Shown here: in pieces, positions 1-26,122 of the stretch
Layout of the letters: the number at the start of each line of letters is the position of its first letter
How positions within the stretch are numbered: the stretch's first letter is position 1
Origin: a virus
Strand: one strand, 5' to 3'
IMG/VR virus record: IMGVR_UViG_3300010354_000539
Span: 1-26,381 of that record
Length of the DNA stretch: 26,381 nt
The notes under the pieces: model-generated
Databases searched by the model: none
The model's input: the letters and a program-made list of their open reading frames with translations, nothing else
Told to the model about the DNA's origin: nothing
Position numbers and translations under genes: made by a program

Positions 1-393
1 CAACTCAGGCGCTATGTCGGGATACTCTTCATATGGTCTATAAAGCTCAGGATTATGAGGACGAATAATTTGACTGGGTCTATAATATTTTTCAGTTAAA
101 TTTATAAAGATTTTTGTGGGAATATACAGTTGTTCCCGCAAACTAATATATTTTTCAGGATTTTGTAAATATTCTTCCCTAAATGACCTAGGAATCAAAT
201 GCTCATGAATCAACTGAGGTGCTACTTGTGGTAACATGGGATTGGGAATATAATATTTTTCTCTGATAGACTGCGTTATGATATTATCTTGATAATATTC
301 CTCAGTTAATGTAGTAGTAAAAGGATTGGGACGAATGTATTGACTTACAAAATCCCAATAAACATAACCCACAGTGGCATATTTTTCGCGTAA
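1..393 (-). repeat. Degenerate REKY/TEEY repeats at the edge
   Basis: From residue 2353 of the giant protein to the window edge, the motif [RT]-E-[EKQ]-x-Y recurs: LREKYA, LTEEYY, IREKYY, FREEYL, LREQLY and LTEKYY, with Y[IR]P following several copies. Spacing is about 14-15 residues or near twice that. The array is different in sequence from the PVTFFTD repeats and probably continues beyond base 1. Confidence 0.6.
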
Positions 394-3300
394 TGGAGAT
401 CCGGCATAAGTCGGGCTTCCTTCTCTGCCTGATGTAATTGGGCTTGTTGCTATTTGATGGTTGACATACTCGCCACTGATATCTATGTCAATCATGTCAT
501 TACTTGGATTAAACAAATAATCTATAAACACATTGTTGTCAGTGGCCTGGAAAGATTTTGAATAGACCAACGCATTGCCGACTTGTGTTGCCGATCCCGC
601 CACACTGCCCCCGGCAAATCCATCAACAATTAGAGGATTACCTAAGAACAAGTTAGCACCAAATGGTAAAATCACTGCTTCCGAATTGAATCCTTTGTCG
701 AAACTAATTATGCTCATTGATTCAGTTTCTGGAGCATAGCTTGTAAACAGAATTTCATTGTAAGCCAATGTAGTTGAACCTGCTACACCATAATTAATTA
801 TTGTGCCGTATTGAGCTATTGATCCTGCGTAAATAGGTGTCAAATCTCCTGCCGGGCTAGGGGTAAAAGTGATAACATCATCATAGTTCCTAAACTCGTA
901 GCCAGGTATTGTATTATTTTTAACAAAATAATCGCGTGCCGGTGCTGCTGGAGAAGTCACTGCACCTCCGCGTTTGGGCCCAATGCCGGATCCAGCTAGC
1001 CCGGGTTTATGATGCAGTATTTCATTGTTTCTGTAAACAAAATAAGTCACAGGTTTTAACCTAAACTCAAATGGGTTACTGGTAAAATATGTTACAGGTA
1101 GTATTCTACGATATCGTATTGTGTCAGTGAAAAATGTAACCGGTCCCAGATATCTATATGTCAACCTATCAGTAAAGAATGTAACAGATTTTTGGAACCT
1201 ATAGAATAATTGTCCTCGGAAAAATGTAGGACCTTTTAAGACTCTTAGATTAGCTCGTAACCTAGACGAGAAAAATGTAGGACCGCGCCCCCATCTATAA
1301 AATCTTTTTTCATTGTACAACATAGTGGGTTGGAAAACCTTTTGGTAATACTCCAGCTTTCCTTTAAAATCGGTTACACTAGGCACATATTGATAGGATA
1401 ATTTATTTGTAGCATAACCTCTAATAGCACCAAGATATCCCGACACTACTTTAGAGCTTGCAATATTATTACTATTAGACGGTGTAAATCCTGTTAGCTT
1501 GGGAGCAAAAACAGGTGTTGCACTGCCGGCAACTGTTCCAAATCCAAATTGTCCCTGTGTTTGTTGCACTTTGTTAAGAGTATATTGATTTGCCAACACT
1601 CTAATTTCGTTTTCTCGAGATAATAGTTTTTCATCTACATTTGCCGTTACCACAGCCGGTAATGTGTTAGGACCAGTAATTGTAATTGAGGGCGGTGTAA
1701 GGTATCCATCACCATTATCCAGCATAATTATGCGATTAATTGCCCCGGTGGCAGTGATATCCACATATGCAAAAGGTAATCGTCCAGTTGGCAAATCAGG
1801 TTGACTAAATGTAATACCAATAGTATTACGATCATACCCAAGACCAGGATTAACTATGGTAACACTGGTAATTGTTTTTCCTAAATCTCTTGTTCTGTTA
1901 ATAAATTGAGCATCAACAATACTGCGTTGTTGCACATCCCATTTCCCAACTTCAATATAGATGTCGCTGCCGTCTAGAGGATCTGTTGCTATTTGGAATA
2001 TAGTTGCGTTACCTTGAAAGTAATTATACATATACCATTCTAGTCCAATGGTATTAGTACCTGTGATTACAGTGGCAACATTATCATTGTATTCAGGATC
2101 TCCATCAATAACAAAACTTATGCCGGGCTCATCAACTAAAAGATTAATTGTTGTTCCTGGTGTAGCACTGGTTGCAGGAATACTAGGTGTAACATAATAG
2201 GTAGCATTACCAAAAAAAGATGTTATAGGTGTGTCATACTTATTAGTAAAGTTATAAACACCAAAAGCATCTTTATATTCTAATGTATCGTTTGTTTCGT
2301 ACCTTACAAAAGGCTCTACCAAAATAGGATATACTAACGGATCAATAATTTCAGGAGGATTAACAGTTTGACTTCTCATTCTAAGAATATTTCTACTAAT
2401 CAAACTTATTTCAGTTTGGTTATAATCTCTATAACCAGTAAAAACATTGCGTACAGTAATGACATCATTGATATTTAAAAAGTTATATGTACCGGGTGAT
2501 AGTGTGTACATTGCTCCCCCACCACTGGGCAATATTTCATAAATGTATTCATTACCACCGCTGCCGGCCGCACTTTTATAGTAGTTTGGCACCCAGTAAG
2601 TTTCACTAAGTTGTATTGAAGTCAACAGATTAATGTTAGTAGATTTAGCTTGCCCGGGCAGTAAATAATCTTGATAATTATAGAATTGAGCATCGTAGTA
2701 TGGATAAACTGGCAAAGCCAATTGATATGTTCCTAAACTAAAGATAACTCCAGATGGGGCTTGATTAGTGCCCATAGGAATCACAGCAGTCAATACATCT
2801 CCTGTCTTTATACTGGATTCGCCATTGTAAATTTTATTATTTCTATACAACCACCCGTATTCAAGACCAGCACGAACATCGCTCAAAGTGGGAATTTTCA
2901 CATCAACAAATATGTCATAGCGTATTTCGCTTGATGCAATACCGGGTTGACGATAATATCTGAGATTTCTAGGCCTGAATCCCAATGGGGTAGGAGTGAA
3001 ACTACCAAACCCAAGAAACTTCCATTTGCCATTGGCCAATGCCGAGCCCAATATAGCTGTGGTTGGAGCCACAACCGGTAGTTTGATTTGATTACCTGGG
3101 CTTACTCCGCGTATTCCAGTGTCTAGACCATAGTTATGATTTGTGTCGTATTGTAGTTCCAAATATTGAAAATTCTTACCTACAAAAAATGCAAATTCGT
3201 ATATGGCTGTGGGATGACTAACAAAAGGTTTAAATAAAACTTGCGTTGATGCCGGTAAAGTTTGAGCAGTTGAAAAAGTTACAAAATTAGCATCATATGA

Positions 3301-6300
3301 CACCGGAGTAGAAACAACTATCGGTGCTAAAAAAGAATAGACTTTGGCTTCATGTAACCTAAAATTCACAGTTGTAGTGGCAGGTACAATTGACCCAGGG
3401 ACCGCAGTGGGCAGAGTTAATCTAGTTACATTACTAGATATAATATCACCGACGGCCATAGTTTGTGGCGTAGTGACCACTATATAGTATTCGTTTACTG
3501 TAACTGATCCTGTGTTGGGATCCTTGCGTACTAAATAACTTTCAAAATTACCAGGTTCCACAATTTGTAACACAGCAACCAGCGATCTATTAATTAATGA
3601 ATTAATTTGTGGGATTACAAATCTATAAGCCTCTACACCAACATCGCCAACGGTGTTAGTAGCGTAAGTATATTCAATTTCAAAACAATTATCTTGTATG
3701 GCTATGGTACCGTTTGTTGCATAAGGAACAGTATAACTAGGTGATCCAATAGTAAAAGGAAAACGATAAACCATTGTTGGTTCGATATCAGTAAACACAT
3801 CAAAACTTGGTGTAGTAGGACTGAACTCCCAAGGAAATATAGTACCATCGGGCACATTAGTAGTAATAACCCGTATCTTGATTACCGCACCTTCTAGTCT
3901 TGTATCATGCCTTGCTTCTAATCTGTAAGTTCTTGTTTTGGTAATTTTACCTACTAGAGTTTCCGGACCACTGAATGAACCGCTGTATAAATTTTGTCCT
4001 ATGACTAAACTATTATAAGCACTGGTACCCACCGACAATGGGGGAGAATTGTAAGCCAATAAAATTTCTGTGGTAGCGGTAGACGCAGCTCTTACTGTGT
4101 AATTGATAGAGGATAATGCTATCGAAGTAATACCAAGATATGTAACAGTAGGTCCACCAGTAAGGAAATCAAATACCCATTTGTTAGTGACTGCAGACGA
4201 AATATGCCCATTCACAATAACAACTTTATTAGGCGCCTCGATAGCTTGAATGAAATCCCCAGTTACATATGTGTTGTCTTGTTGTTGATAATATCCGTGT
4301 TTGACACTACCGCCAGCTGATGTCATTAAACTATATTGTTTTATAGTTTTTGGCGCACTCACATAAAACGACTTATCAACGGCTTTGCTCCAATATACTG
4401 TATCAGTGTCATTATAAACTGCGGTAGCAACAACTTGAGTAGGTCCAGTTACTGGTCCGGTGGAAACAATCGCTCCCCAAGGATAAGGAAAAGGACTAGT
4501 AATTGGATTGCTAATATAATCGCCTACGCTGATTCCTGTAAAATTAACAAAATTTATTTCTGTGGTTGCAGTTTGAAGAATTGCAGCAGTAGTATTAACT
4601 CTACCCCTTGGGTAAGAAGCTTCGGTGGTGCCTATATATTTGGCTTTGAAGTAAGCAAACTCACCTATCAACCCCGAAGTATAATAAAAACCAGGGACAT
4701 CCGCTGTAGTCAATGTGCCTTGTACGATATTGGTAGGATCGCGATTATCTATGGGATAATCAGGGTACAATAATTCCGGCCTAGGTAAGATAGCATCAGT
4801 CATTACTGTTGCAAACCCAGGAACTACTCCTGTTATATTATAAGCAGGATCAAACCCAACTACGCCATTGTTGGTCACTATCAGTTCATTGTACACAGAT
4901 CCCCAAAAATTAACATCGAATGTGATAGGATAAGTACCAGTCACACCCGCGATAGGTGCTATAAATGTGTAAGTGAGACCAATTTTGTTTAATCCAATAG
5001 TACCAAGAGAAACAAAATCGTACAAACTTATGTCAGATTTGACTTCAACTTCAAAATCAAGTGCGTGCTCGCCTACCACTAGTTGCGTAGTAATTGTACC
5101 TTCTTCGCTGGCTCTAAAATCTATTCCAAGATAATCACCAGTGTTAATGGTATTTCTATAATTACCGTTGACCCACCATTGAGTTAATGCTGCCGGATAT
5201 GCAGTTATACCTTGCTGCCCCAACATCGTAACTTGATAAGGATCAGCACTGACATGACTTGTTGAACCACCTTTACGAGAAGGTTTAAACGGAATAATTT
5301 TTTCTACTCCGGCCAAATCTAATGTGGTTCGGTTTTCTAACCAATGCACTGCCCATATATAACCATCAGCCACATCTACTAAAGTTACCTTGCTAGAGAA
5401 ACTTATTTTTTGTAGTTGAAACTGAGAGTTATATACATACACTTCATTGGTGTCATGGCCAGTTACATATAGATTATTATCATTGTAAAAATTTAAACAA
5501 TAAGCAGGTACAAAATCACCGGTGCTCGAGAAAGAAGCCACCAATCCCGGAATACTGATAAAAATTAATCTTCTATTATGGCAGTCTGGCACTACCACCC
5601 TGTTGTAAAGATTTTTAGGATCTTTAAAATAGGCAGGTGAACCCAAGACAAACAAACCTGTAGGAGTAATATCCATGCTGGTACCAGCAGCATAAATTAC
5701 CAAGATTCTATGATTTTTTGTAGTAACAATAATAGAAGTTGGGCTAGCATATGTAACTGCAACTATTTCGTGTATAGCTGTAACATAATATATATTGATT
5801 AAGGATAGACTTCTTGTGCCAACAATATAAACAACATTATAGCCTATCAACCAAATAATAGCATCTGTTATCTCCAAAGCCACTAGATCAGGAAATAAGC
5901 CAGCCGTTAACTTCAACCTAGAGGCATCAGTAAAGTCCCCTCTAAAAGGAATAGCTTCACTTATTGCCAACCCTGTTAATACAAAAGTACTCTTAGTTTT
6001 TGGTATAAGCTGCATAGTTCTATCGTAGGATAGATTGGGCCAAACACGATAGCATCTAAAATCATTGCATAAAACATACAATACTGCGCCTCGAAAATTG
6101 GTCAAAGTTCCTTCAATATTACCAACACCAAACACATGTTTACGATAACTAATAGGACCGCCAGGTAAAGCCAAGCTAGCTACTAAACCGCCATTATAAA
6201 AGAAATTTACAGTTTGTGCCAATGGATCTAAAATAATTGCACTGTTGATAATATCAACATTAGCTGACAAAGAATTGCCCATGGGCCTCGATGTATCTTC

Positions 6301-7449
6301 AGCAGCGATTATTCCTTTACCTGTTGCAACAGTAATCCTAGGATTATCATTTATATAATTGTACCATTTTTTAGTTCTATCCGGTACCTTGATCAGTGGT
6401 TGATAGTTATTTTTATTGACAATAGCAAATGATGATCTAGCCCCATCTAAGTAATAATAGTAAAATGCTCTAGCTAAAAAACTGGCAGGACTGGTTACTG
6501 AAACTTTTACAAGTTCGTCCTTGAGTAAATTCACAGTGGAATTAGCAGGATAAGTTGTACCTGAATTTGAAATTCTTATAGTACCAATAAAGGGTGCCCC
6601 CGAAATACGAGATCTGTAATTTAATGTGGCAGGAGTAGTAGCCGATGTTCTAATTTCAATCGCACCTGAATCACCTAAGTCATATTCAACAGTGACAATA
6701 TCGTTTGCCAGTACATTGTTAAAAAAATATAAACTGTTACCACTGGTAACTTCTATAGCATAATCACCGTTTGATTTTTTTCCAGCTATCAAAGTAGAAG
6801 GAGTTTTTACTACACCGTTTACCTTGACAATATATCTAGCTTGATCAAACATGGTACTTAATACATATCGTCCCCGTATGATTTTAAGTTGTTCCCACAT
6901 ACCACCAAACAAGGCGGATTCAATATAACTACCAAACCCTACATCAAAACCAGTGCTGTAGTCTGGTCCGTTTGCAAGAAACTGCCATGGATCAGGAACA
7001 GTAAAATCTTCCTGCCACCAAACTGAATAATCGTCAAAATTAACAACGCCAGGATCAATATAATATTTTGTTTGCCCAAGAGTTGTTCCTAAAATGAAGA
7101 TACAGTCAGTCCCGCTAAAAGTATCTTTATTTGGGATGTGTTGCTGATAACGAATACCATTAGTATATGTAACGCCAGCAGTGGTTGTTATACGAACTGG
7201 TTGGCTGGGGGCATTTAAAACGAGATAGTAGATACGATTTCGTAATAAATGCAAGGTGTGATTTAAGATTCCCGGTCCAGTGGGTATAGTATCTACAAAG
7301 TACCCGGTACCGGTTTCGGTGATGTAATAAATTTCAGTGCCGGTAATTACCACCGGCACTGAACTACCGCTTAATTCTTGCTGCTTGCCTGATACAAAAC
7401 TTGTTGATACAGTTGTACTTGGTACACAAGATGATACACTTGGAAACAT
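1..7449 (-). CDS. Giant tail/fibre protein, C-terminus beyond the left edge
   Basis: I read this frame by translating the minus strand; it has no stop from the ATG at 7449 to base 1, so at least 2,483 residues, and it is still open at the edge. An in-frame TAA lies two codons upstream (7453-7455), so this is the first possible ATG; it has no good Shine-Dalgarno site and begins 23 bp after the 428-aa gene. Residues about 415-700 look like a beta-propeller (recurring hydrophobic strands, e.g. AIIWLIGYNVVYIV and RILVIYAAG). A segment with TTNVPDGTIF near 1200 resembles the Calx-beta-like repeats of the 389-aa neighbour. Residues about 1860-1925 carry NPGLGYD and NGDGYLTPPSITI, the GxGY-type motif common in T4-like fibre proteins. 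Two short-repeat arrays follow. Role as a tail fibre or other host-contact protein is inferred from composition and neighbours; I do not recognise a named gene. Confidence 0.8.
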   Translation of the reverse strand, partial: MFPSVSSCVPSTTVSTSFVSGKQQELSGSSVPVVITGTEIYYITETGTGYFVDTIPTGPGILNHTLHLLRNRIYYLVLNAPSQPVRITTTAGVTYTNGIRYQQHIPNKDTFSGTDCIFILGTTLGQTKYYIDPGVVNFDDYSVWWQEDFTVPDPWQFLANGPDYSTGFDVGFGSYIESALFGGMWEQLKIIRGRYVLSTMFDQARYIVKVNGVVKTPSTLIAGKKSNGDYAIEVTSGNSLYFFNNVLANDIVTVEYDLGDSGAIEIRTSATTPATLNYRSRISGAPFIGTIRISNSGTTYPANSTVNLLKDELVKVSVTSPASFLARAFYYYYLDGARSSFAIVNKNNYQPLIKVPDRTKKWYNYINDNPRITVATGKGIIAAEDTSRPMGNSLSANVDIINSAIILDPLAQTVNFFYNGGLVASLALPGGPISYRKHVFGVGNIEGTLTNFRGAVLYVLCNDFRCYRVWPNLSYDRTMQLIPKTKSTFVLTGLAISEAIPFRGDFTDASRLKLTAGLFPDLVALEITDAIIWLIGYNVVYIVGTRSLSLINIYYVTAIHEIVAVTYASPTSIIVTTKNHRILVIYAAGTSMDITPTGLFVLGSPAYFKDPKNLYNRVVVPDCHNRRLIFISIPGLVASFSSTGDFVPAYCLNFYNDNNLYVTGHDTNEVYVYNSQFQLQKISFSSKVTLVDVADGYIWAVHWLENRTTLDLAGVEKIIPFKPSRKGGSTSHVSADPYQVTMLGQQGITAYPAALTQWWVNGNYRNTINTGDYLGIDFRASEEGTITTQLVVGEHALDFEVEVKSDISLYDFVSLGTIGLNKIGLTYTFIAPIAGVTGTYPITFDVNFWGSVYNELIVTNNGVVGFDPAYNITGVVPGFATVMTDAILPRPELLYPDYPIDNRDPTNIVQGTLTTADVPGFYYTSGLIGEFAYFKAKYIGTTEASYPRGRVNTTAAILQTATTEINFVNFTGISVGDYISNPITSPFPYPWGAIVSTGPVTGPTQVVATAVYNDTDTVYWSKAVDKSFYVSAPKTIKQYSLMTSAGGSVKHGYYQQQDNTYVTGDFIQAIEAPNKVVIVNGHISSAVTNKWVFDFLTGGPTVTYLGITSIALSSINYTVRAASTATTEILLAYNSPPLSVGTSAYNSLVIGQNLYSGSFSGPETLVGKITKTRTYRLEARHDTRLEGAVIKIRVITTNVPDGTIFPWEFSPTTPSFDVFTDIEPTMVYRFPFTIGSPSYTVPYATNGTIAIQDNCFEIEYTYATNTVGDVGVEAYRFVIPQINSLINRSLVAVLQIVEPGNFESYLVRKDPNTGSVTVNEYYIVVTTPQTMAVGDIISSNVTRLTLPTAVPGSIVPATTTVNFRLHEAKVYSFLAPIVVSTPVSYDANFVTFSTAQTLPASTQVLFKPFVSHPTAIYEFAFFVGKNFQYLELQYDTNHNYGLDTGIRGVSPGNQIKLPVVAPTTAILGSALANGKWKFLGFGSFTPTPLGFRPRNLRYYRQPGIASSEIRYDIFVDVKIPTLSDVRAGLEYGWLYRNNKIYNGESSIKTGDVLTAVIPMGTNQAPSGVIFSLGTYQLALPVYPYYDAQFYNYQDYLLPGQAKSTNINLLTSIQLSETYWVPNYYKSAAGSGGNEYIYEILPSGGGAMYTLSPGTYNFLNINDVITVRNVFTGYRDYNQTEISLISRNILRMRSQTVNPPEIIDPLVYPILVEPFVRYETNDTLEYKDAFGVYNFTNKYDTPITSFFGNATYYVTPSIPATSATPGTTINLLVDEPGISFVIDGDPEYNDNVATVITGTNTIGLEWYMYNYFQGNATIFQIATDPLDGSDIYIEVGKWDVQQRSIVDAQFINRTRDLGKTITSVTIVNPGLGYDRNTIGITFSQPDLPTGRLPFAYVDITATGAINRIIMLDNGDGYLTPPSITITGPNTLPAVVTANVDEKLLSRENEIRVLANQYTLNKVQQTQGQFGFGTVAGSATPVFAPKLTGFTPSNSNNIASSKVVSGYLGAIRGYATNKLSYQYVPSVTDFKGKLEYYQKVFQPTMLYNEKRFYRWGRGPTFFSSRLRANLRVLKGPTFFRGQLFYRFQKSVTFFTDRLTYRYLGPVTFFTDTIRYRRILPVTYFTSNPFEFRLKPVTYFVYRNNEILHHKPGLAGSGIGPKRGGAVTSPAAPARDYFVKNNTIPGYEFRNYDDVITFTPSPAGDLTPIYAGSIAQYGTIINYGVAGSTTLAYNEILFTSYAPETESMSIISFDKGFNSEAVILPFGANLFLGNPLIVDGFAGGSVAGSATQVGNALVYSKSFQATDNNVFIDYLFNPSNDMIDIDISGEYVNHQIATSPITSGREGSPTYAGSPLREKYATVGYVYWDFVSQYIRPNPFTTTLTEEYYQDNIITQSIREKYYIPNPMLPQVAPQLIHEHLIPRSFREEYLQNPEKYISLREQLYIPTKIFINLTEKYYRPSQIIRPHNPELYRPYEEYPDIAPEL
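1006..1284 (-). repeat. Six tandem ~15-residue repeats (PVTFFTD type)
   Basis: Within the giant protein (residues 2056-2148) the translation falls into six consecutive units starting GPTFFSS, GPTFFRG, SVTFFTD, PVTFFTD, PVTYFTS and PVTYFVY. Units two to five are exactly 45 bp each; the first is 51 bp and the last about 48 bp. The pattern is [GPS]-[PV]-T-[FY]-F followed by about ten polar or basic residues rich in R, L and Y. The period suggests a repetitive beta structure such as a fibre shaft; that is inference. Confidence 0.8.
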
Positions 7450-7472: not shown

Positions 7473-8759
7473 TTATCTACTTCTAGTTTCGTTAGCTTCA
7501 GCAGATGCTGTCAGTACCATAATTCTCATTCCGTTACCATAGGGCCTATTGCCATATACGGCAGTGTATTTCCTATCAGCAGTTTCTCCATAAACTCTAA
7601 CGGTAATACTGGTACCACCGCCCATTACTTCTGCACCCACTGTACCTAACATATCTAATTCATCGCCGTATCTAAATCTACTTGTACTTAGATTATTAAT
7701 AAAAGTCACAACAAATTCGCCGTTTTCCGTGATACTCTGTTGCTGGTATGGATTTATAATTGCTGGACTGTCTGTTGTATTTGCCACAGCATTCTTTTTA
7801 GGTCCAGGAACTAAAACATCATTTTCTCTAACAATAAATCGTTTATATGTATTCGGTTGTCCTGTACCAAACACACAAAAAACGGGTGATCTACTGGGTT
7901 CAGGTAATCCATCTACATAAGGATCCCAGCCTTTATCGTTACCGGTCAAAGCACCAGTATGCATTCTTGCTATTCCATTGCCCCTCATATTAAATCCACC
8001 GCGCACCCAACCGGTTTCTCTATCTACTGCTCGTTGTATAACAAACCATCTTATAGGACTATTACCGTATATATCTTCTAAATCGGTATAACCTGCATTA
8101 GGCACAGCCTCAGTGGGAACTTCCTCTTGGTTGTCCTCCCAAATGGCCACCACTATACCACGGTTACTCATTGTAAGAATATAATTCATTGGATAAGATT
8201 CTTCAGCTCCAATGCTGCTTTTACGACTTATAAATAACTCGCCTGCCTTATCAACATCAGGTTGTGGATAAGTCTTACCCGCGACAGGTGGTGCACCAAA
8301 AAAAGCACCGGTACCACTCCAGTATTCTGGATTCATACAACCCGGCGGTTCCCTGTATTGGAGGCCAGCTGTATTTGGCGCTCGATTTGTCATGAATAAT
8401 ATTTCACCGTCATCGGGCAGTGTTAGTGCAGTCCCAGCGTGAGCGGTAAAGGCTTTATCATCATGCCTTACCCATCCAAATCTCCAATGACAGTTTGCAT
8501 ATGCTGTACCAACTTTTGTCAATGTAGGCATGTAATTAGCTAGACCGTTAACTGCTGTTGTTGTTTCATAGATAACAACAGCATTATCGGGATATGTTGC
8601 TCCAGCAAAATTTGCACCACCACCTGTGGGGAAAACTTTTGTAAAGTAGGTTACAGTACCCCCGCCAACAGTGTGTGCTTTTGTTATTTCAGTATCTAGA
8701 TCAGCTATTAGCAAATCTATGGTAGAAAATCCATATTTCTGTACAGAAACGACCGTCAT
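7473..8759 (-). CDS. Virion/tail protein sharing a C-terminal domain with the 1043-aa protein
   Basis: 428 aa. The start is preceded by AGGAG at good spacing, and the gene follows the 1043-aa gene after 13 bp, so the two are probably co-transcribed. The N-terminal ~180 residues are specific to this protein. The C-terminal ~240 residues match the end of the 1043-aa protein in order: ESYPMNY, NRGIVVAIWED, VIQRAVDRETG, SPVFCVFG, RFIVRENDV, FINNLSTSRFRYGDELDM and a closing VRVYGE...RKYTA segment. No catalytic motif, signal peptide or membrane segment is seen. Position among fibre proteins suggests a tail or baseplate surface component; the exact role is unknown. Confidence 0.75.
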   Translation of the reverse strand: MTVVSVQKYGFSTIDLLIADLDTEITKAHTVGGGTVTYFTKVFPTGGGANFAGATYPDNAVVIYETTTAVNGLANYMPTLTKVGTAYANCHWRFGWVRHDDKAFTAHAGTALTLPDDGEILFMTNRAPNTAGLQYREPPGCMNPEYWSGTGAFFGAPPVAGKTYPQPDVDKAGELFISRKSSIGAEESYPMNYILTMSNRGIVVAIWEDNQEEVPTEAVPNAGYTDLEDIYGNSPIRWFVIQRAVDRETGWVRGGFNMRGNGIARMHTGALTGNDKGWDPYVDGLPEPSRSPVFCVFGTGQPNTYKRFIVRENDVLVPGPKKNAVANTTDSPAIINPYQQQSITENGEFVVTFINNLSTSRFRYGDELDMLGTVGAEVMGGGTSITVRVYGETADRKYTAVYGNRPYGNGMRIMVLTASAEANETRSR

Positions 8760-8772
8760 TTAAAGCTCCTAA

Positions 8773-11700
8773 TTATTCATAAACATCTTTAATAACGCAA
8801 ATTCTTAAACCAGCGTTATATGGTAAGTTTGCACTTAAAGCCTTGTATGTCCTAGCCCCGGCTTCACCGTATGCAGTCACAACAACATCAGAGCTTGCCA
8901 TAGACACATCACCTGCTGACTGACCAATCATGTCTAATTCTTCAGAATATCTGAATCTCGGTGTAGTTAGGTTATATAGGAAAGAAACCAAATATCTACT
9001 GTCCTCAGTCAAAGCAATTTGTGCTGTTGAATTAATAACTAAGAAACTGTCCTCGCTGTGCCTATCAGCAGGCACACGAAATGGAGTTGTTTCCTCAGCC
9101 ACAGTATGATCATCAACATCATAATAATAAGATTTAGTTTCTTTGTCACCTTGTGTTGGATGCATAACATCGCGTTCGCGTACAATGAATTTCCAATACT
9201 TGTAACCAATACCATTTACACAAAATACTGGACTTTGTCCTACAGTTAGAACTTGTCCATTATTTCTATCAACTGGTCTCTGTACTAACATCCAATTAAA
9301 CCATGCATCTTTTTCACTTAATTGTCTTGCTCGACTCTTTTGCATGATTGACCATGTACCTTCCCAAATTCCAAAAAAGAACCCGCGGTTGGTAAATGCA
9401 CACATATAGCTCAATGGGTAACTTTCTGGATGCTGAGCCACTCTTACTGAACGATTTACAAAACCTTGTGAAGTATCATTTGTATCAGTTTTTCTATCAA
9501 TTATAGGACCAATATGTACAAGATCTGTTTTAGTCAAAGTTACTGCCGCTGTTACATCTTTAGTTAAGTCTAACTCGTATTTGGCCGCTGTAGCTCCTGC
9601 TTTGGCGGTATATGTGACAGATTTTATAAATGTTTCTGGGGGAATCTGATTGCCAACTACAGCGTAACCAACTTTATATCTGCCGTCATCAGCATCTTGA
9701 GGGTTTCTTGGATCTGTGCTATCAAGATCATCTAATGTAAGTTTTGAAGGGGCAGTAGTTATTGACCCCGTTAAAACCTGTATAGTACTCCCATATTGTG
9801 GGCGATAGCGTTTTTGACAAATAAACACATGATTCGTAGCTGTTAAAGCAACAGCAGTTGGTCCATAATCTTTTGTTACTAAAAATGTAATTGTAGGTAC
9901 ACCAGCGGCTACTGTAAAGGTTTTGACCTTGATGATCTCGGTCATTGGTATAAAAGTTTGGGTACCCGATCCATTGATAATTACCCATTCACCTACAAAT
10001 GTGTTGATATCAACATAATTGGTGGTCCAAGTTACACCTGCTCGATTTGAGATAGCAGTACTCATGGTCAATTCATTGTTAGTAAAATTGCCGCCAGTGA
10101 TTTTCCAACTACTATCAGCAGTTGGATCACCTACACTGGCTTGATGATCTTCTCTAAGATAATCAAGCACTACTTTGCTAGGAACTTGACCAACAATACC
10201 GCTCAAATCAGTTACATAACCTTGGTAGTCTGTGACCCGTGAAATGTGCCCGTCGTCGCGCAGTTGAACTTCTGTGCCAACAAAGGCATTTAATGTCTGG
10301 GAACCATTGGCTTGGAAAGCAACACGATAAGGCTGCGTAAATGGAAACTTAAATCTCACAGTGGTTGTAGGACTTGTTATCAAACCCGCAGCTTGGTTTA
10401 CATTCAACCATACATTTGCAGTACCGTTATAAACATCTACATTGGCAACATTTGTGATTGTTACATTACTACCAGTTAATGTGCCAGCTCCACTGGCAAT
10501 AGTAAGTTCCATGCCCTTGAACAGCATGGGATAAAATGTAGGACTTGGATTATTACCAGTTCTATTAGGTGCAGTTAATGTAGTAACTGCCAAAGAATTG
10601 CCGGCAACTTTGATAGCTTGCCCAGTTACACCCAAATCATCATTTAATGGATCAATTCTATAAAGTGCTTCTAAAGTCACATTAAACTTATCGGCTGGTA
10701 TATCTGCTGTGTCGTCAATTGCAAACTCATCGCCGCGCACAGCAAATTCGTCGCCCTTGGTTACTGTAATAGGTGCACTGGTTTCAAACCATAAAAAGTC
10801 TTTGGTTTCCTCGTACCAAGTTTTCGTTGTCGTCGCACCGCTTGTCACAGAAACAACTTTTTGATCAGCTACACAAGGAAAACTGTTCACTGCAACTATT
10901 GTTGTACCTGCAGGAATTGTACTAGTTGCTCCACCATATGCCGGCCTAGTTAGAATAATTTCTTGTCCAACAAAAATCACTGGTGGATCTTCTGTGGCCA
11001 ATACCGGAGTCCATATTCCATCTACAGGCCATCTTGTGCAGGCTTGTGTAGTTTTACAATCAGGATCGCCGGCACTATCTCTATAAAGATCCGTTGGAGC
11101 ACCTGCTGGAGTACCAGTTTTCACCAATCTAGTAGAAAATGGTTGAGCTGGTCCTCCCCGTCCCGGTGCAGTTTCTAACGGCCCACCAGCAACCGTTTGA
11201 ATGAATAAACCGCCTCCGTAGGCCCTGAACCAATTATCGCCCGGAACATTGTCCGTAGAACTACTCCCAAGAGCCACAGGAAAAGGTTTGACCACAGTAG
11301 GGCCAGCAGAGCCCGTAGAAGATACTACATTACCACCAAAATATAAAACATTTCCGGTGCCATCGGCATGTTCGGTTAGATAACTTACTTCTGCATTTCT
11401 TACATATGGCTTGAATCTGTTGCCTTTTGGTTTAAAAACTAATGCTTTATTGTTAGAAGTTGCAGTGTCATAAGTACCTGAATTCAAGACTTCGAATTTA
11501 GTTACACCACCTGTTTGTTCATTAATTCCTGTTACTTTAACAACTAGATTAGATGGCTGGCCTGGATCTTGATAGGTCAATATATCTCCTATAAAATATC
11601 CGCGACCAGGATTAGCGATTTTTCTTAATCTTTGTCTTGGTGGCCAAGTTGTATCTTTAATCGTTATATTAGCAAGAGTAAGAGCACCATACCCCTCAAA

Positions 11701-11904
11701 TACATCGGGCAACGGATCGTTGTTGTATTGTACTAAAACATTTGCAGATTCAATGACATCAGTTGTAATGACTTTTAATGCTCCCTGAGCACTGGCATCA
11801 TTAATAAAATCAGTCAAAAGTTCAGTTACCGTCAAATACCCAGTTCTTTCTGTCGAGTAGAAAGTTCTTTTTTGTCTGCTAAATTCATAAACTTGGCGCG
11901 GCAT
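8773..11904 (-). CDS. Large virion/tail protein with GxGY motif and the shared C-terminal domain
   Basis: 1043 aa. GGAG lies upstream of the ATG, and a late promoter box (GATAAATA) sits about 40 bp upstream, giving a leader of about 30 nt, so this gene probably heads a transcript with the 428-aa and giant genes. Near residue 95 it has NPGRGYFIGDILTY and later VTKFEVLNSGTYDT, the GxGY-type motif of T4-like fibre proteins. The middle is rich in T, V, G and N with beta-strand character. The last ~250 residues repeat the domain of the 428-aa protein (HPESYPLSY, NRGFFFGIWEG, VQRPVDRNNG, SPVFCVNG, FIVRERDVM, RFRYSEELDM). Tail surface or fibre role is inferred. Confidence 0.75.
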   Translation of the reverse strand: MPRQVYEFSRQKRTFYSTERTGYLTVTELLTDFINDASAQGALKVITTDVIESANVLVQYNNDPLPDVFEGYGALTLANITIKDTTWPPRQRLRKIANPGRGYFIGDILTYQDPGQPSNLVVKVTGINEQTGGVTKFEVLNSGTYDTATSNNKALVFKPKGNRFKPYVRNAEVSYLTEHADGTGNVLYFGGNVVSSTGSAGPTVVKPFPVALGSSSTDNVPGDNWFRAYGGGLFIQTVAGGPLETAPGRGGPAQPFSTRLVKTGTPAGAPTDLYRDSAGDPDCKTTQACTRWPVDGIWTPVLATEDPPVIFVGQEIILTRPAYGGATSTIPAGTTIVAVNSFPCVADQKVVSVTSGATTTKTWYEETKDFLWFETSAPITVTKGDEFAVRGDEFAIDDTADIPADKFNVTLEALYRIDPLNDDLGVTGQAIKVAGNSLAVTTLTAPNRTGNNPSPTFYPMLFKGMELTIASGAGTLTGSNVTITNVANVDVYNGTANVWLNVNQAAGLITSPTTTVRFKFPFTQPYRVAFQANGSQTLNAFVGTEVQLRDDGHISRVTDYQGYVTDLSGIVGQVPSKVVLDYLREDHQASVGDPTADSSWKITGGNFTNNELTMSTAISNRAGVTWTTNYVDINTFVGEWVIINGSGTQTFIPMTEIIKVKTFTVAAGVPTITFLVTKDYGPTAVALTATNHVFICQKRYRPQYGSTIQVLTGSITTAPSKLTLDDLDSTDPRNPQDADDGRYKVGYAVVGNQIPPETFIKSVTYTAKAGATAAKYELDLTKDVTAAVTLTKTDLVHIGPIIDRKTDTNDTSQGFVNRSVRVAQHPESYPLSYMCAFTNRGFFFGIWEGTWSIMQKSRARQLSEKDAWFNWMLVQRPVDRNNGQVLTVGQSPVFCVNGIGYKYWKFIVRERDVMHPTQGDKETKSYYYDVDDHTVAEETTPFRVPADRHSEDSFLVINSTAQIALTEDSRYLVSFLYNLTTPRFRYSEELDMIGQSAGDVSMASSDVVVTAYGEAGARTYKALSANLPYNAGLRICVIKDVYE

Positions 11905-15018: not shown

Positions 15019-15411
15019 TTATGTCAAATCGACATTGCCTGCAAATACGCTGTTTGTACCGGCTTCTTCAACCTGTACAGCATTATCACTTGCGCTGGCG
15101 GTGTATGTCCACGGATATGCAGTGCCGTCACTGGCTGTCAAAGTATGAGCACTGATTTTCCTTACAAACAAATCTGTGCCTGCATCGTTCGTTACTGTAA
15201 TTGTCATTTGACCGGCTGTGAGACTGGCGTCGGCCACTTCAACCAAAGTACACACTGCTTGTGTTCCAGCAGAATCAACACATACAAATTTTTTTGATCC
15301 TTTTTGTCTAACAATGGCACCATTTACACTGGCAGTACCATTATGAAATCTCACACGAAGATTTGGATTAGCATCGGCACCAAAATTTCTTTTATTAAGA
15401 GGGCGTCCCAT
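15019..15411 (-). CDS. Small conserved T4-like structural protein
   Basis: 130 aa with AAGGAG 8 nt before the ATG. The N-terminus MGRPLNKRNFGADANPNLRV and the following pattern (a sentence such as IVRQKGSKKFVCVD, then MTITVTNDAGTDLFVRKISA and YPWTYTASASDN) belong to a family of short virion proteins found in T4-like aquatic phages, of unknown role. All of the sequence is beta-type with no membrane segment. It is transcribed alone: a terminator follows it, and upstream the gap holds the divergent lipoprotein promoter. A poor late-type box (GGTAAATA, 15484-15491) could serve it. Confidence 0.7.
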   Translation of the reverse strand: MGRPLNKRNFGADANPNLRVRFHNGTASVNGAIVRQKGSKKFVCVDSAGTQAVCTLVEVADASLTAGQMTITVTNDAGTDLFVRKISAHTLTASDGTAYPWTYTASASDNAVQVEEAGTNSVFAGNVDLT

Positions 15412-15498
15412 TTGTTTTCTCCTTAGTGGTGTTCTAGACCCTACGGGGTGGGTTCCCCATAAACTCTTTTTGAGTGAACAAAGTATTTACCATTTTAG

Positions 15499-17745: not shown

Positions 17746-18849
17746 TTATTTCAACCCTGCCAAACGCTTGAGTTCAACGACATTGTTCTCGGTAGCAGTT
17801 TCTTGGGCTGCTGCTGGTTTAGCAGTTTTATCTCCTGTTACTGTTACACGGCTTTCGGTTAATACAGCCTTAGCTGGTTCCTTAGCGCCGGTAGTTAGTA
17901 CGGCAGGTAGATACTTTTCGAATGCTGACTTCAATTTTGGAGTCTGCACACTTTCGAGAAGTTCACGCATTACCGATTGCTTCTCTTTAACCAATGTACC
18001 AAGTAGCTCATCCATTACGGCTTTGCGATCCTGGCTTTCTTTAATAACGCGAATCTCGCGTTCTTTAGATTCAACAATTTGTTGAGCTTGTTGCTTGGCC
18101 GATGTGGCTTCTGCAAGCTGCTCAGTTTGTTGATCAATAACTTTTCTTAGCTTTTGTATTTCTACATTTTCATTGAGATGAGTCAACGAAAACTCGCTGG
18201 CAAATGCTTCGAAAATACGGCGTCCAAACATGTTCTCACGAGCAAGTTGGATATCCTCTTTAAGTTGAGTAAGTTCTGCGCCTAGTTTTTGTGTTACTGA
18301 TTCTTTAACTAGTTGTGCGCTGCTCTGAATAAAACGGCGTTGAATTGACTCAAGTTTGTCTTTGGCTTCGGCTACTAGACGAACTTTTGTTTCAACAACT
18401 GATTTCTTATCTTGAGCAAACTCGCTGATTTCTTGAGCGAGAGCGCGAACAATGAACTTTTCTAAACGCTGATAATTCTCTTTTTGAATTTTGCGATCAG
18501 AATGTAGTTCTTTGATTTCTTCTACTAGTTTGTTTACCATGAAGTCGTTGAAACGACCGGCGCTTTCAAGCATGTGATTCTTGATACGCACACGATCCTC
18601 GACAATGGCTTTTTTCTCGTCTACAAATTCCGTAATTTCCTTAGCGAGATTTTCAGTAACCATCTTGTCTAGTGCTTCGACCATTACAGACTTATCGTGC
18701 TCATAGCGGGTGGCCATTTCCTCACGGAGCTCGGCGCGGATTTGCTCGCGAGCTTCAGTTAACTTGGCTTCCCAAGCTTCGTTTAACTCACGGCGTGTGT
18801 CCTCATTGATAATACCGCTATCTAGCAATGGTTTTAAAGCGTCAAACAT
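17746..18849 (-). CDS. 22: Prohead scaffold protein, gp22-like
   Basis: 367 aa, the main internal scaffold on which the capsid assembles, later degraded by gp21. Predicted almost wholly helical and charged, with coiled-coil character. The signature ENMFGRRIFEAFASEFSLTH lies near 206-224. It is longer than T4 gp22 (269 aa), at least in part from repeats of the type LAKEITEFVDEKKAI (68-82), LVEEIKELHSDRK (108-120), LAQEISEFAQDKKSV (137-151) and a weaker copy near 188-201. AAGGAG precedes the ATG; 12 bp separate it from gp21. Order and content leave little doubt about the role. Confidence 0.9.
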   Translation of the reverse strand: MFDALKPLLDSGIINEDTRRELNEAWEAKLTEAREQIRAELREEMATRYEHDKSVMVEALDKMVTENLAKEITEFVDEKKAIVEDRVRIKNHMLESAGRFNDFMVNKLVEEIKELHSDRKIQKENYQRLEKFIVRALAQEISEFAQDKKSVVETKVRLVAEAKDKLESIQRRFIQSSAQLVKESVTQKLGAELTQLKEDIQLARENMFGRRIFEAFASEFSLTHLNENVEIQKLRKVIDQQTEQLAEATSAKQQAQQIVESKEREIRVIKESQDRKAVMDELLGTLVKEKQSVMRELLESVQTPKLKSAFEKYLPAVLTTGAKEPAKAVLTESRVTVTGDKTAKPAAAQETATENNVVELKRLAGLK

Positions 18850-22478: not shown

Positions 22479-22486
22479 TATTTATT
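22479..22486 (-). promoter_or_regulatory. Late promoter box AATAAATA before portal
   Basis: Matches NATAAATA on the minus strand; its first base is the last base of the tape measure TAA. A start near 22473 gives a leader of about 34 nt for portal. Confidence 0.6.
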
Positions 22487-24888
22487 TAAGTTTGAACTGC
22501 ATAAATTTTACCTTGAGTTCTTGTCATTTCTCTAATATGATCTCTTACCTCAGCCATTACACTAATTTGCTGTCTGCTTATCATATTATTTTCTTGTAAT
22601 ACATTTTTCAAATCGTTTTGAAAGTTACGATCCATATTAGTGAGACTGGTTGAATTTCTTGTTGATTCAACAACTTGATCTGATATTTGTCTAACTGATT
22701 TTTGTGTATCTTGCACTGCCAGCAGCGCACCATTTACTGAACTGTTTAACTGCCCTAGAAAATCTCGCGAGTTTGAAGTACTAGACACTCTGCCAAAAGC
22801 AGATGGTCGTACTAATTCTGGGCCTCGTTCACCCACAAGATATTGTTTACCGGGAAAAATGTCCCCACCAATGGCTTTTTTATCAGCTAGCCCACCCACA
22901 GCACCACCGCCAAAATACCCTATGGTACCGCCCACCAATCCGCCAATAGCTGCGCCCACTACCGGTATAGGAATAAGAGCTTGTCCCATTCCTGCACCAA
23001 TCATGCCCATGCCATATGCTCCAGCCACACCGCCTAATGTTTTACCAGGACCCTCAACCGCAGCCTCTGGTGGTTTGCCGGCATTTTGTAATGCACTGAT
23101 AACTTCAGGTTTTAGTGTACCGTCGGGGTTGAATGCGCTGTCCATCAAGGTTTTTTCAGCTATGCCAACCACAGTACGCAATACACTTACAAATTTACTT
23201 AGTGGCCCTTGCCCATCCGGGCCGGTCATAAGAGATTCTAATGCCACTCTCATTTTTTGTGTAGAATTTTCTAGTGCCAAGACTTCACCATTTAGACCTT
23301 TTGTATTTGTAGCAGTCTCAGCTATATTTGCACCAGCAGCACTGGCAGCTTTTTCCGAATAGACCAATTGCTGTAATATTTGATTAGTTATATCTGCCGC
23401 TGCTTTAGTATTGCCGCTTAAATTATTTGTCATTAATGCGCTAAAACTCAGAGCTTGATCTGTTGATGCCGCAGTTTCACGCATTCTATCACGCAACCTA
23501 CCAACTTCACTTTGCATCATTGTTGTGACTTGCTCAGGGTCCATGGTAGATTTTATCATGCCAACAACATTGTCCACAAAACCCATTAGTGCAGGTTGTT
23601 GTTGTGCCGCAACTAAAAATGGAATGTCTGTAACTACCTGACCCATGGCTTTTTGTAATATTGCCCTTTGCATTTGTTCAGGGGTTTGTGCCAGTACTCT
23701 CTGCAATCTTACACTTTCTTCTGCGCTTAACTTGCTTAATACTTCGTTACGCATTGACTCTAGTCGAGCACGATCTTGTAGTTTTTTAGCGTCCTTACCA
23801 GTTAAGTCGCTGACTATACGAAGATTTTTTCCGTACTCAGCAGTCATTCGTGCTATTTCCTCATCACTGCGTATTCTTTCATCCCCGGCTGCTCTTTGGT
23901 TGGCTATTAAACTGGCTGCAAGTCCTGCTTGTTCCTCAAAACTATAGCCTAGCAAAGTTAACTGATCACCTAGTTGACTGTTACGCAATACACGACTTAC
24001 ACCACCTATCTGTTTGGCTGCTTCGCCCATGCCCATGCCCATTAGCACAAGGTCATCACGGCTTTTAGAAATAGCTGCACTAAATTGTGCCACTCCTAGG
24101 CCAGCCATATTGGCTTGTTGCCTTAGGCCCACTAATCCACCGCCCAGTGTAGCACCGGCATCAAATACTTCTCTATAACTTTTTGTAGTTTTATTAACTT
24201 CGTTGCGTAAAAAATCAATAGCCTTAATTACTACCTCTTGGGTCTTGGCTAGACCTTCCATAAGCTGTCCGGCGCCAATAAGAGCAGCACCAAATGCTTT
24301 TAATGGACCCGGCAATAATGCTAAGTATTGACCAAATTGACTGAGATTGCCGCCCATGGCTTGTGTGGCTTGGGCAGTTGCTCTTACCGAATCTATTGCT
24401 GCCTGAGATCCAGTATCAACTCCACTGGCACCTCGTTGTAGATTTTCAGCAAAATTAAAAATTCCATTTATTATTGTACCAATGGCCGAAGTCATAGTGG
24501 CTGCTGTATTTTGAGTAGCAACACCAAGCCCTTCTTGTGCCAATACTTGAGCTCGACTGGCTCGTGATTGCCGCAAGTTATCAAGTTGTTTTTGAGCTGC
24601 TACACCTTTTTCGGTGGCACCATACCTTGCCACATCAGCTTCGGCTTCGCGAATTCTACGAGTAAACTCGTCCATTTCCGTACCAATATCTTGGTAACTA
24701 CGAGTTTGGCCTTTCAGTAAACTTTCAGTTTTTTTATACCAAGGATTGGATTTTTCCATGGCTTCGGTATTTTCTTTTATTTTCTTAAGGAACTCGTCTA
24801 GCGATTTTTTGTCCAATGGAGCTTTGTCAGGGGCACCAAAATATTCCCTGAATAGACCTTCCATTTCGCTTTGTGTAATTCCGGTCAT
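22486..24888 (-). CDS. Tail tape measure protein
   Basis: 800 aa; sets tail length and forms the interior of the tail tube before DNA ejection. It has long helical stretches (residues 1-130 and the middle part rich in Ala, Gln and Met), a glycine-rich hydrophobic segment (about 615-670: VVGAAIGGLVGGTIGYFGGG), and the typical tape measure end motif AIGGDIFPGKQYLVGERGPE followed by LVRP near 673-697. At the usual ~0.15 nm per residue the tail would be about 120 nm. T4 uses gp29 (590 aa) from another locus; this one lies between portal and the gp26-like gene and has the siphophage-style GERGPEL motif. Alternative: another tail protein with a tape-measure-like end, less likely. Confidence 0.82.
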   Translation of the reverse strand: MTGITQSEMEGLFREYFGAPDKAPLDKKSLDEFLKKIKENTEAMEKSNPWYKKTESLLKGQTRSYQDIGTEMDEFTRRIREAEADVARYGATEKGVAAQKQLDNLRQSRASRAQVLAQEGLGVATQNTAATMTSAIGTIINGIFNFAENLQRGASGVDTGSQAAIDSVRATAQATQAMGGNLSQFGQYLALLPGPLKAFGAALIGAGQLMEGLAKTQEVVIKAIDFLRNEVNKTTKSYREVFDAGATLGGGLVGLRQQANMAGLGVAQFSAAISKSRDDLVLMGMGMGEAAKQIGGVSRVLRNSQLGDQLTLLGYSFEEQAGLAASLIANQRAAGDERIRSDEEIARMTAEYGKNLRIVSDLTGKDAKKLQDRARLESMRNEVLSKLSAEESVRLQRVLAQTPEQMQRAILQKAMGQVVTDIPFLVAAQQQPALMGFVDNVVGMIKSTMDPEQVTTMMQSEVGRLRDRMRETAASTDQALSFSALMTNNLSGNTKAAADITNQILQQLVYSEKAASAAGANIAETATNTKGLNGEVLALENSTQKMRVALESLMTGPDGQGPLSKFVSVLRTVVGIAEKTLMDSAFNPDGTLKPEVISALQNAGKPPEAAVEGPGKTLGGVAGAYGMGMIGAGMGQALIPIPVVGAAIGGLVGGTIGYFGGGAVGGLADKKAIGGDIFPGKQYLVGERGPELVRPSAFGRVSSTSNSRDFLGQLNSSVNGALLAVQDTQKSVRQISDQVVESTRNSTSLTNMDRNFQNDLKNVLQENNMISRQQISVMAEVRDHIREMTRTQGKIYAVQT

Positions 24889-24941: not shown

Positions 24942-25784
24942 ATGGATAAAGTCAATCCTTTGCACAAGTTTTTTAGACAAGCTGCTATTCACATGGAACT
25001 ACCTAGTGGTGGTAGATTTTGGCCACAAGGCAGTATTGATATCCCTGTTACTGGCCAAATTCCGGTTATGCCAATGACAGCTCGTGATGAAATCACATTG
25101 AGAACCCCGGATGCGCTAATGAATGGCAGCGGCATAGTTGAAGTTATTCAAAGTTGTTGCCCGTCAATAAAAGACGCTTGGGCTACACCAAATGTCGATG
25201 TTGATGCGTTATTAATCGGAATTCGTATAGCCACTTACGGCCCAAACATGGACATTGACAGTAAATGCCCACATTGTGCCGCAGAAAACAGGCACGGTGT
25301 TGACCTAGGCACTGTGCTAGGTAGTATCCAATGCCCTGACTATAATCATCTTATAGCAGTATCCAATCTACAAATCAAACTCAAACCAGTACCATTTTTC
25401 GGTATAAATCGTGAAAACACTGTGAGTTTTCAAGAACAAAAATTACTACAAGCATTAGAAAAACCTGATATTGATCCACAACTAAGAGCTCAAGAAATTC
25501 AAAACAGTATGACAAGAATAGTCGACGCCAATATTGAAATGACTGCTAAGGCCACTGACTACATTGAAATTGATGCAAACACAAGAGTAAGTGAATATGA
25601 TTTCATTCACGAGTTCTACACAAATGCAGCAGCAGATATACTCAGAGCAGTGCAGTTGAGATTGACAGAGATCAACGCTCAAGGCGCACCTAAACCCAGT
25701 TCTGTACAGTGCTCGGAATGCACCAAGGGCTATATTATTCCATTGGAGTTTGATTACGCAAATTTTTTCGTCAAAGGCTTTTGA
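24942..25784 (+). CDS. 26: Baseplate hub/assembly protein, gp26-like
   Basis: 280 aa (T4 gp26: 208). Belongs by pattern to the T4 baseplate protein family represented by gp26: an N-terminal PSGGRFWPQG, MPMTARDEITLRTPDALMNG near 43-62, IQSCCPSIKDAW and DALLIGIRIATYG near 88-100. CPHC (109-112) and CSEC (257-260) can together hold a zinc ion. A late promoter is placed 32 bp upstream. Near the 3' end the codons GCA AAT TTT TTC contain two -1 slippery heptamers (AAATTTT and TTTTTTC), and the downstream 72-codon frame lies in the -1 register. A frameshift there would give a 352-aa product. The symbol is based on family pattern. Confidence 0.8.
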   Translation: MDKVNPLHKFFRQAAIHMELPSGGRFWPQGSIDIPVTGQIPVMPMTARDEITLRTPDALMNGSGIVEVIQSCCPSIKDAWATPNVDVDALLIGIRIATYGPNMDIDSKCPHCAAENRHGVDLGTVLGSIQCPDYNHLIAVSNLQIKLKPVPFFGINRENTVSFQEQKLLQALEKPDIDPQLRAQEIQNSMTRIVDANIEMTAKATDYIEIDANTRVSEYDFIHEFYTNAAADILRAVQLRLTEINAQGAPKPSSVQCSECTKGYIIPLEFDYANFFVKGF

Positions 25785-25785
25785 C
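25760..25785 (+). promoter_or_regulatory. Candidate programmed -1 frameshift site
   Basis: A-AAT-TTT (25760-25766) and T-TTT-TTC (25763-25769) are both in the correct phase of the gp26-like frame for tandem -1 slippage. A 6-bp hairpin, GTCAAA/TTTGAC (25770-25785), follows directly, and a second inverted repeat CGAAATC/GATTTCG lies at 25798-25826. The -1 frame is open only from 25754, so the site lies in the 31-nt overlap. The first hairpin is closer than the usual 5-9 nt. Confidence 0.5.
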
Positions 25786-25999
25786 AGCCAGCGATGACGA
25801 AATCGTAAAAATCCTTGATGATTTCGATCGCGAATCAAAAGCCATAAAGCAGGAACTACTTAAAATGTGTTGGTTTATGAGGGGTGGGATAACCTATGAA
25901 GAAGCTAGTCAGTTAACCATCAATGAAAGAGAAATGATTGCAAAGATTATACAGGAAAATTTAGAAATAACTAAAAAGTCAGGAATTGGATTCTTTTAA
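25781..25999 (+). CDS. Small tail-assembly region protein or frameshift extension
   Basis: 72 codons from a TTG whose last two bases and the next A form the TGA stop of the gp26-like gene. There is no in-frame ATG before codon 29, so the frame is either started at TTG by coupling or entered by -1 frameshift from the gp26-like gene. The product is charged and helical: ILDDFDRESKAIKQELLKMC, WFMRGGITYEEASQL, then EMIAKIIQENLEITKKSG and FF at the end. A similar short protein after gp26 appears in T4-like phages as I remember them; function unknown. A terminator follows at once. Confidence 0.75.
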   Translation: MTASDDEIVKILDDFDRESKAIKQELLKMCWFMRGGITYEEASQLTINEREMIAKIIQENLEITKKSGIGFF

Positions 26000-26091: not shown

Positions 26092-26122
26092 TCATAATTT
26101 GCCCGCTAGGGGCAAATTATGA
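26092..26122. repeat. Perfect 13-bp inverted repeat
   Basis: TCATAATTTGCCC, a 5-base loop GCTAG, and GGGCAAATTATGA. No T-run on either side. TTCATCC occurs just before (26074-26080) and after (26130-26136), and AAGGC/GCCTT (from 26068 and to 26131) could extend the structure. It lies in a ~150-bp stretch without a gene. It could be a transcript end, a processing site or a protein-binding site. Confidence 0.7.

Follow-up and report, generated by a model that had tools for sequence, protein, structure and literature searches.

A gp26-like gene of jumbo phages and cyanophages probably encodes two tail-assembly chaperones through a −1 frameshift at a conserved T TTT TTC heptamer

Tail assembly chaperones are made through a −1 frameshift by the G/GT genes of phage lambda and, in the same manner, by E/E+E′ of phage P2, and T4 has long been listed as an exception to the frameshift rule known from lambda. 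A −1 frameshift also operates in Escherichia coli dnaX, where an SD-like element, a heptamer and a stem-loop are combined. Of the two lambda forms, the short one attaches to the tape measure protein, while recruitment of the tube protein falls to the long one (PMC5009743). The hub assembly chaperones listed for T4 include both gp26 and gp51, the latter being required although the particle does not contain it (PMC3004832). As cited in PMC10885494 and PMC12846349, Vladimirov, Gautam and Davidson (2022, Virology 566:9-15) describe chaperones of this kind (TAC genes) in T4-like phages and the use of two genes for them in T4. Going by these citations, the frameshift/two-gene chaperone idea for T4-like phages has been in print since 2022, and the anatomy of the stimulators and the spread among jumbo phages may be unpublished.

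We analysed a gp26-like gene in a 26,381-base record of an uncultivated virus, the whole of which we refer to as the window. Like lambda G/GT, this locus combines a short protein with a putative −1 frameshift-extended form in one gene beside a tape measure gene, here a probable one (PMC5009743 for lambda). It differs from lambda G/GT and P2 E/E+E′ in its heptamer TTTTTTC, in the divergence of its tape-measure-like neighbour and in the presence of a covarying downstream stem; Pfam and PDB comparisons yielded no sequence or solved-fold match to either system, a weak or missing match not being the same as a different fold. For the TAC locus of Pseudomonas phage Adele and of Vandenendeviridae and Andersonviridae, a −1 shift has been proposed that would take place on a poly-T motif close to where TAC-N ends, and there, as in the relatives of the window gene, the downstream frame is usually annotated as a separate hypothetical protein, although the motif is GTTTTT and the phage families are others (PMC12846349).

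The gp26-like gene and its −1 extension

The gene and its neighbour occupy the following positions:
24942-25784 (+): gp26-like gene, short form (TAC-N type), 280 aa, PF12322 / phrog_150 baseplate hub
22486-24888 (−): 800-aa divergent neighbour gene, probable tape measure protein

The gp26-like ORF matched the Pfam profile PF12322 (T4_baseplate) with 39.7 bits, above the curated cut-off of 24.5, and the PHROG profile phrog_150 of the T4 baseplate hub family with 1.1e-14. The 280-aa protein was modelled by AlphaFold with a pLDDT of 84.9, and a BFVD search returned phage baseplate hub proteins, as expected. The neighbouring gene, which lies back to back with the gp26-like gene, found no named family in profile searches. 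Its C-terminal part contains the segment YLVGERGPELV, which we take to be a tape-measure motif, and at the corresponding place RaK2 has a gene annotated as similar to a tail tape measure protein. On the motif and the RaK2 annotation, the initial annotation was right to place the gp26-like pair next to a tape measure gene, here a probable one. A gp26-like gene also lies a short distance upstream of the annotated tape measure gene in Caulobacter phage Cr30.

Several other features of the window were recorded. Downstream of the gp26-like gene, at about 26093-26121, an inverted repeat, CATAATTTGCCC-GCTAG-GGGCAAATTATG, was read by eye and is perhaps a terminator or a module edge. The Rfam freshwater-2 cis-regulatory RNA (RF02980) was found at 15409-15477 (−) with 51.1 bits, above its gathering score. 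Two adjacent ORFs, 7473-8759 (−, 428 aa) and 8773-11904 (−, 1043 aa), may represent a sheath duplication, since each has a match to the tail sheath family phrog_12249 at about 1e-43. ORF 17746-18849 (−), flanked by the genes for head protease and major head protein, matches phrog_10922 over its full length and has a borderline Pfam globin match (22.3 bits, cut-off 22.0) that is probably due to chance. A 2483-aa ORF at 1-7449 (−) runs off the left end of the record.

The gp26-like ORF ends in GAT TAC GCA AAT TTT TTC GTC AAA GGC TTT TGA, its zero-frame stop being the TGA at 25782-25784. The features around this end are:
25763-25769 (+): slippery heptamer T TTT TTC, in zero-frame phase, the universal candidate shift site
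25760-25766 (+): second heptamer A AAT TTT, overlapping the first, in zero-frame phase, not conserved and probably dispensable
25754-25999 (+): −1 frame, open throughout, with TAA at 25997-25999
25769-25996 (+): 76-residue extension of the long form (352 aa), encoded in the −1 frame

As the initial annotation had it, the small frame lies in the −1 register, is open only from 25754 and has no early ATG: the only start-like codon before its codon 29 is the TTG at 25781 in a TTGA overlap, and the first ATG follows 32 codons past the shift. We also confirmed on the sequence that both in-phase heptamers lie within the 31-nt overlap of the gp26-like ORF and the −1 frame and that a slip at either would give the identical 352-aa product (276 residues, RQRL, then 72 residues). 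The model of the 76-residue extension is helical (pLDDT 86.1). PHROG and Pfam searches with the window extension gave no credible match, tblastn with the extension as sole query hit nothing besides Atu_ph07 and Phosso, and fold and sequence searches of the PDB found no solved structures resembling the models of either the gp26-like protein or the extension.

Heptamer and phase were both conserved across homologous gp26 loci. T TTT TTC in phase and a continuing −1 frame were present in all 25 metagenomic relatives with a gp26-like protein, and T TTT TTY in phase with a −1 extension in 12 of 12 named jumbo phages (Phosso, BF, RaK2, Atu_ph07, PA5oct, SCTP-2, Vibrio 2.275, PBECO4, GAP32, Munch, Hallingskeid and XacN1, the last with the variant T TTT TTT), the lowest protein identities being about 24-30%. 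Among 93 further genes from cyanophages, Aeromonas and Caulobacter phages, gathered from one cyanophage and one Aeromonas starting point, 88 had the in-phase T TTT TTY followed by a −1 extension, and the zero-frame stop stood exactly one codon past the heptamer in 86 of these 88. Because bias in codon choice was to be avoided, we scanned IMG/VR with a codon-neutral pattern that admits every synonymous codon for FDYANFF; AAT TTT TTC was present in 68/68 gp26-like hits among the matches listed, while the preceding codons varied. In counts drawn from related sequences, for which P values assuming independence do not hold, the second Phe codon was TTC in 21/21 non-redundant members of the window clade (17% of Phe elsewhere in the same genes), 11/11 of a second group (35% elsewhere) and 43/46 of a third (25% elsewhere). 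The slip site is thus conserved far beyond chance.

The initial annotation had named both heptamers as slippery. A AAT TTT is missing in L001, L008, L024 and several others with GCT or GCC Ala codons, as well as in distant relatives. Because it is not conserved, TTTTTTC is the likely working site, and we rejected AAATTTT as an essential shift site.

The Ackermannviridae-type gp26 genes of Det7, D504 and BX-1, which were set aside, lack the heptamer and keep the −1 extension. In D504 and BX-1 the frames meet in an overlap start, TAATG, and Det7 has neither heptamer nor TAATG; a different recoding or coupling solution is likely in these genes. No recognisable heptamer or −1 extension was found in the gp26-like gene of IME-SM1.

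RNA elements flanking the heptamer

Four elements of the window were considered as possible stimulators or as parts of them:
25770-25775 (+): spacer of 6 nt from heptamer to stem
25776-25843 (+): candidate stimulatory stem-loop, with an outer stem of GGCUUUUGA (25776-25784) and UCAAAAGCC (25835-25843) that encloses an inner hairpin
25770-25785 (+): GTCAAA/TTTGAC hairpin of the initial annotation
25745-25748 (+): GGAG, SD-like, 14 nt upstream of TTTTTTC, possible upstream stimulator

The stem-loop at 25776-25843 has a folding energy of −26.4 kcal/mol, with z-scores of −5.4 against dinucleotide shuffles and −5.2 against synonymous shuffles, which preserve the −1 protein and its codon usage; the window lay below all 200 of the latter. 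The mean synonymous-shuffle z was −3.86 in 20 members of the window clade and −2.88 in 45 relatives that had not been used to find the stem, 25 of which were below every shuffle, and in 41 of these 45 independent relatives the first paired base lay 5-6 nt past the heptamer. RNAalifold returned no consensus structure; the outer stem was tested as a named structure by covariation and by synonymous shuffles. It showed compensatory changes in 20 cells compared with a shuffle mean of 9.8, above all 500 shuffles, and its covariation score was 0.236 (0.174 in shuffles), with the best pairing in the proposed register. The shuffle and covariation results indicate that downstream RNA structure is under selection in the window clade. 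The cyanophage group has a downstream hairpin of its own (mean z −2.67), and synonymous shuffles detected no selected downstream structure in the Enterobacteria jumbo phages RaK2, BF, GAP32 and Munch.

The GTCAAA/TTTGAC hairpin exists as initially described, but it abuts the heptamer, is not conserved and is mutually exclusive with the larger stem. We rejected it as the stimulator; the stem-loop beginning after 6 nt is the better candidate.

Upstream of the heptamer, 6 of 21 relatives have GGAG and 6 more GAG, and the codon for the Glu concerned was GAG in 12/18 (18% background). The corresponding element in cyanophage-like genes lies 10 nt upstream of the heptamer, as GGAGG in 33/46 and GAGG in 9/46, with GAG at that Glu in 42/46 compared with 28% background. 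At about 25 nt from the ATG of the extension, the cyanophage GGAGG is too distant to act in initiation there. The cyanophage-like relatives thereby share the three-part layout of dnaX, with GGAGG 10 nt upstream, heptamer and hairpin, in an unrelated gene and with a T-rich heptamer; the SD-like GGAG of the window stands farther upstream, at 14 nt, and shows less conservation.

Alternatives to ribosomal frameshifting

If the two frames were ordinary overlapping genes, the small protein would start by translational coupling at the TTG at 25781 and the slippery sequence would be incidental. The TTGA overlap of the window with an AAGG 3 nt before the TTG, the ATG at extension codon 3 in many cyanophage-like relatives (60/88) and the annotation of the frame as a separate gene in public records speak for such a start. 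However, PA5oct has no ATG, GTG or TTG across the whole extension, and L008, L011, L015, L023 and RaK2 have no start codon for at least 30 codons. Where a first start codon is present, it varies in both position and type and in most cases has no SD. Conservation of the protein begins directly behind FF: extensions align from the Arg that follows Phe-Phe with at most one internal gap, and in 21/21 of the window clade the heptamer is followed by G, while the zero-frame residue there varies, so that the Arg is fixed in the −1 frame. These comparisons indicate that −1 coding is under selection and that no start is conserved. Because start codons are scattered or absent, coupled initiation cannot be the general mechanism; it also leaves AAT TTT TTC in every one of the listed matches, and the selected stem at +6 nt, without an account, and we regard it as very improbable. 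An ATG stands immediately past the shift site in a few jumbo relatives, and separate initiation is possible in these and in the cyanophage-like relatives with an early ATG; members of the latter with the codon-3 ATG could use both frameshift and initiation.

Transcriptional slippage is known in bacteria, and RNA polymerase slipping on the T6 run could yield mRNAs that gain or lose one base. The homopolymer run is there, but T6 is short for efficient polymerase slippage, which moreover needs no fixed phase, whereas the X XXY YYZ phase is kept in every heptamer-bearing relative; neither the stem at +6 nt nor the SD-like element at −10 would be called for. This explanation likewise appears very improbable. 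A frameshift mutation or assembly error that split one gene and left the overlap as an artefact has nothing in its favour beyond the presence of two frames, and it is refuted by conservation, since the same split recurs in more than 100 records, finished phage genomes included, and the slip site and RNA structure are selected. We give it practically no weight.

Ribosomal −1 frameshifting at T TTT TTC, through which one gene would give rise to two tail-assembly chaperones, is in our judgement very probable. The heptamer, its phase, the extension and the RNA structure support the initial proposal that such a shift joins the gp26-like protein to the small frame. Most ribosomes would stop at the TGA at 25782-25784 and release the 280-aa, gp26-like short form of TAC-N type. 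The stem-loop that begins 6 nt downstream would pause a minority of ribosomes, which would slip back by one base on T TTT TTC (25763-25769) and continue in the −1 frame, resulting in a minor 352-aa long form of TAC-NC type with the 76-residue helical extension. If lambda G/GT is a guide, the tape measure protein would be bound by many short and few long copies, and the extension would recruit the tail tube or hub. We infer the occurrence of slippage, its efficiency and the chaperone role from sequence; the gene pair is probably a TAC-N/TAC-NC tail chaperone pair of the lambda G/GT type.

Relation to T4 gp26 and gp51

T4 gp26 and gp51, both PF12322 proteins, resemble the window gene in belonging to the PF12322 / phrog_150 family and in comprising a short and a long form, gp51 having about 46 residues beyond the family domain. 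The window has one gene and a −1 shift, whereas T4 has two genes and no slip site: T4 gp26 keeps Phe-Phe as TTC TTT, without a heptamer, and gp51 is a separate in-frame long protein. The initial annotation was right that T4 itself is not known for this frameshift. A profile of the cyanophage −1 extension matched the C-terminus of gp51 in T4 (1.4e-7) and in Klebsiella phage phiKp_23 (5e-8) and did not match T4 gp26. The profile phrog_634, 'baseplate hub assembly catalyst', matches both the cyanophage-type small frames and the gp51 tail, and the small frames of S-PM2 and RHph_N34 are annotated under that name. The 76-aa extension of the window is longer than that of gp51 and weakly similar to it, the window-type (jumbo) extension giving a weak profile match to the cyanophage/gp51 extension (hhalign probability 11%, E 0.0027). 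On these profile comparisons, the gp26-like part is a member of the gp26/gp51 family and the cyanophage extension is homologous to the gp51 C-terminus. Because gp51 carries an in-frame piece homologous to the cyanophage extension, T4 appears to make both forms from two separate genes, 26 and 51. The match between the cyanophage extension and gp51 also lends support to the earlier suggestion that the pair may be a T4-type counterpart of lambda G/GT.

The tree built on the family domain unites gp26 and gp51 of T4 type in a single clade (99/96), which adjoins the Aeromonas frameshifting genes (83/81) and lies among the frameshift lineages. This placement fits a derived duplication in the T4 line and is suggestive only because of long branches and midpoint rooting. 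We lean, with some reservation, towards a history in which a −1 shift at TTTTTTC in one gp26/gp51-type gene was ancestral to the T4 superfamily. Jumbo phages, cyanophages and some Straboviridae would have kept it with stimulators specific to each lineage: the freshwater jumbo clade would rely on its long covarying stem at +6 nt, and cyanophages on an SD-like GGAGG at −10 nt plus a hairpin. T4 genes 26 and 51 would have arisen by duplication as a derived replacement.

What public records show next to gp26 as a small gene is probably, for the most part, a wrongly annotated fragment of a longer protein. In the records for L026-L037, L127 and L131, the −1 extension is missing, cut back to an internal start, or given either as a hypothetical protein of its own or as gp51, which amounts to a systematic annotation problem. 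The relatives described here point to the lambda-type frameshift rule in the wider T4 superfamily and suggest that one frameshifting gene was replaced in the T4 line by two. The T4 hub factors gp26 and gp51 would thereby gain a concrete, testable job as short and long tail chaperone.
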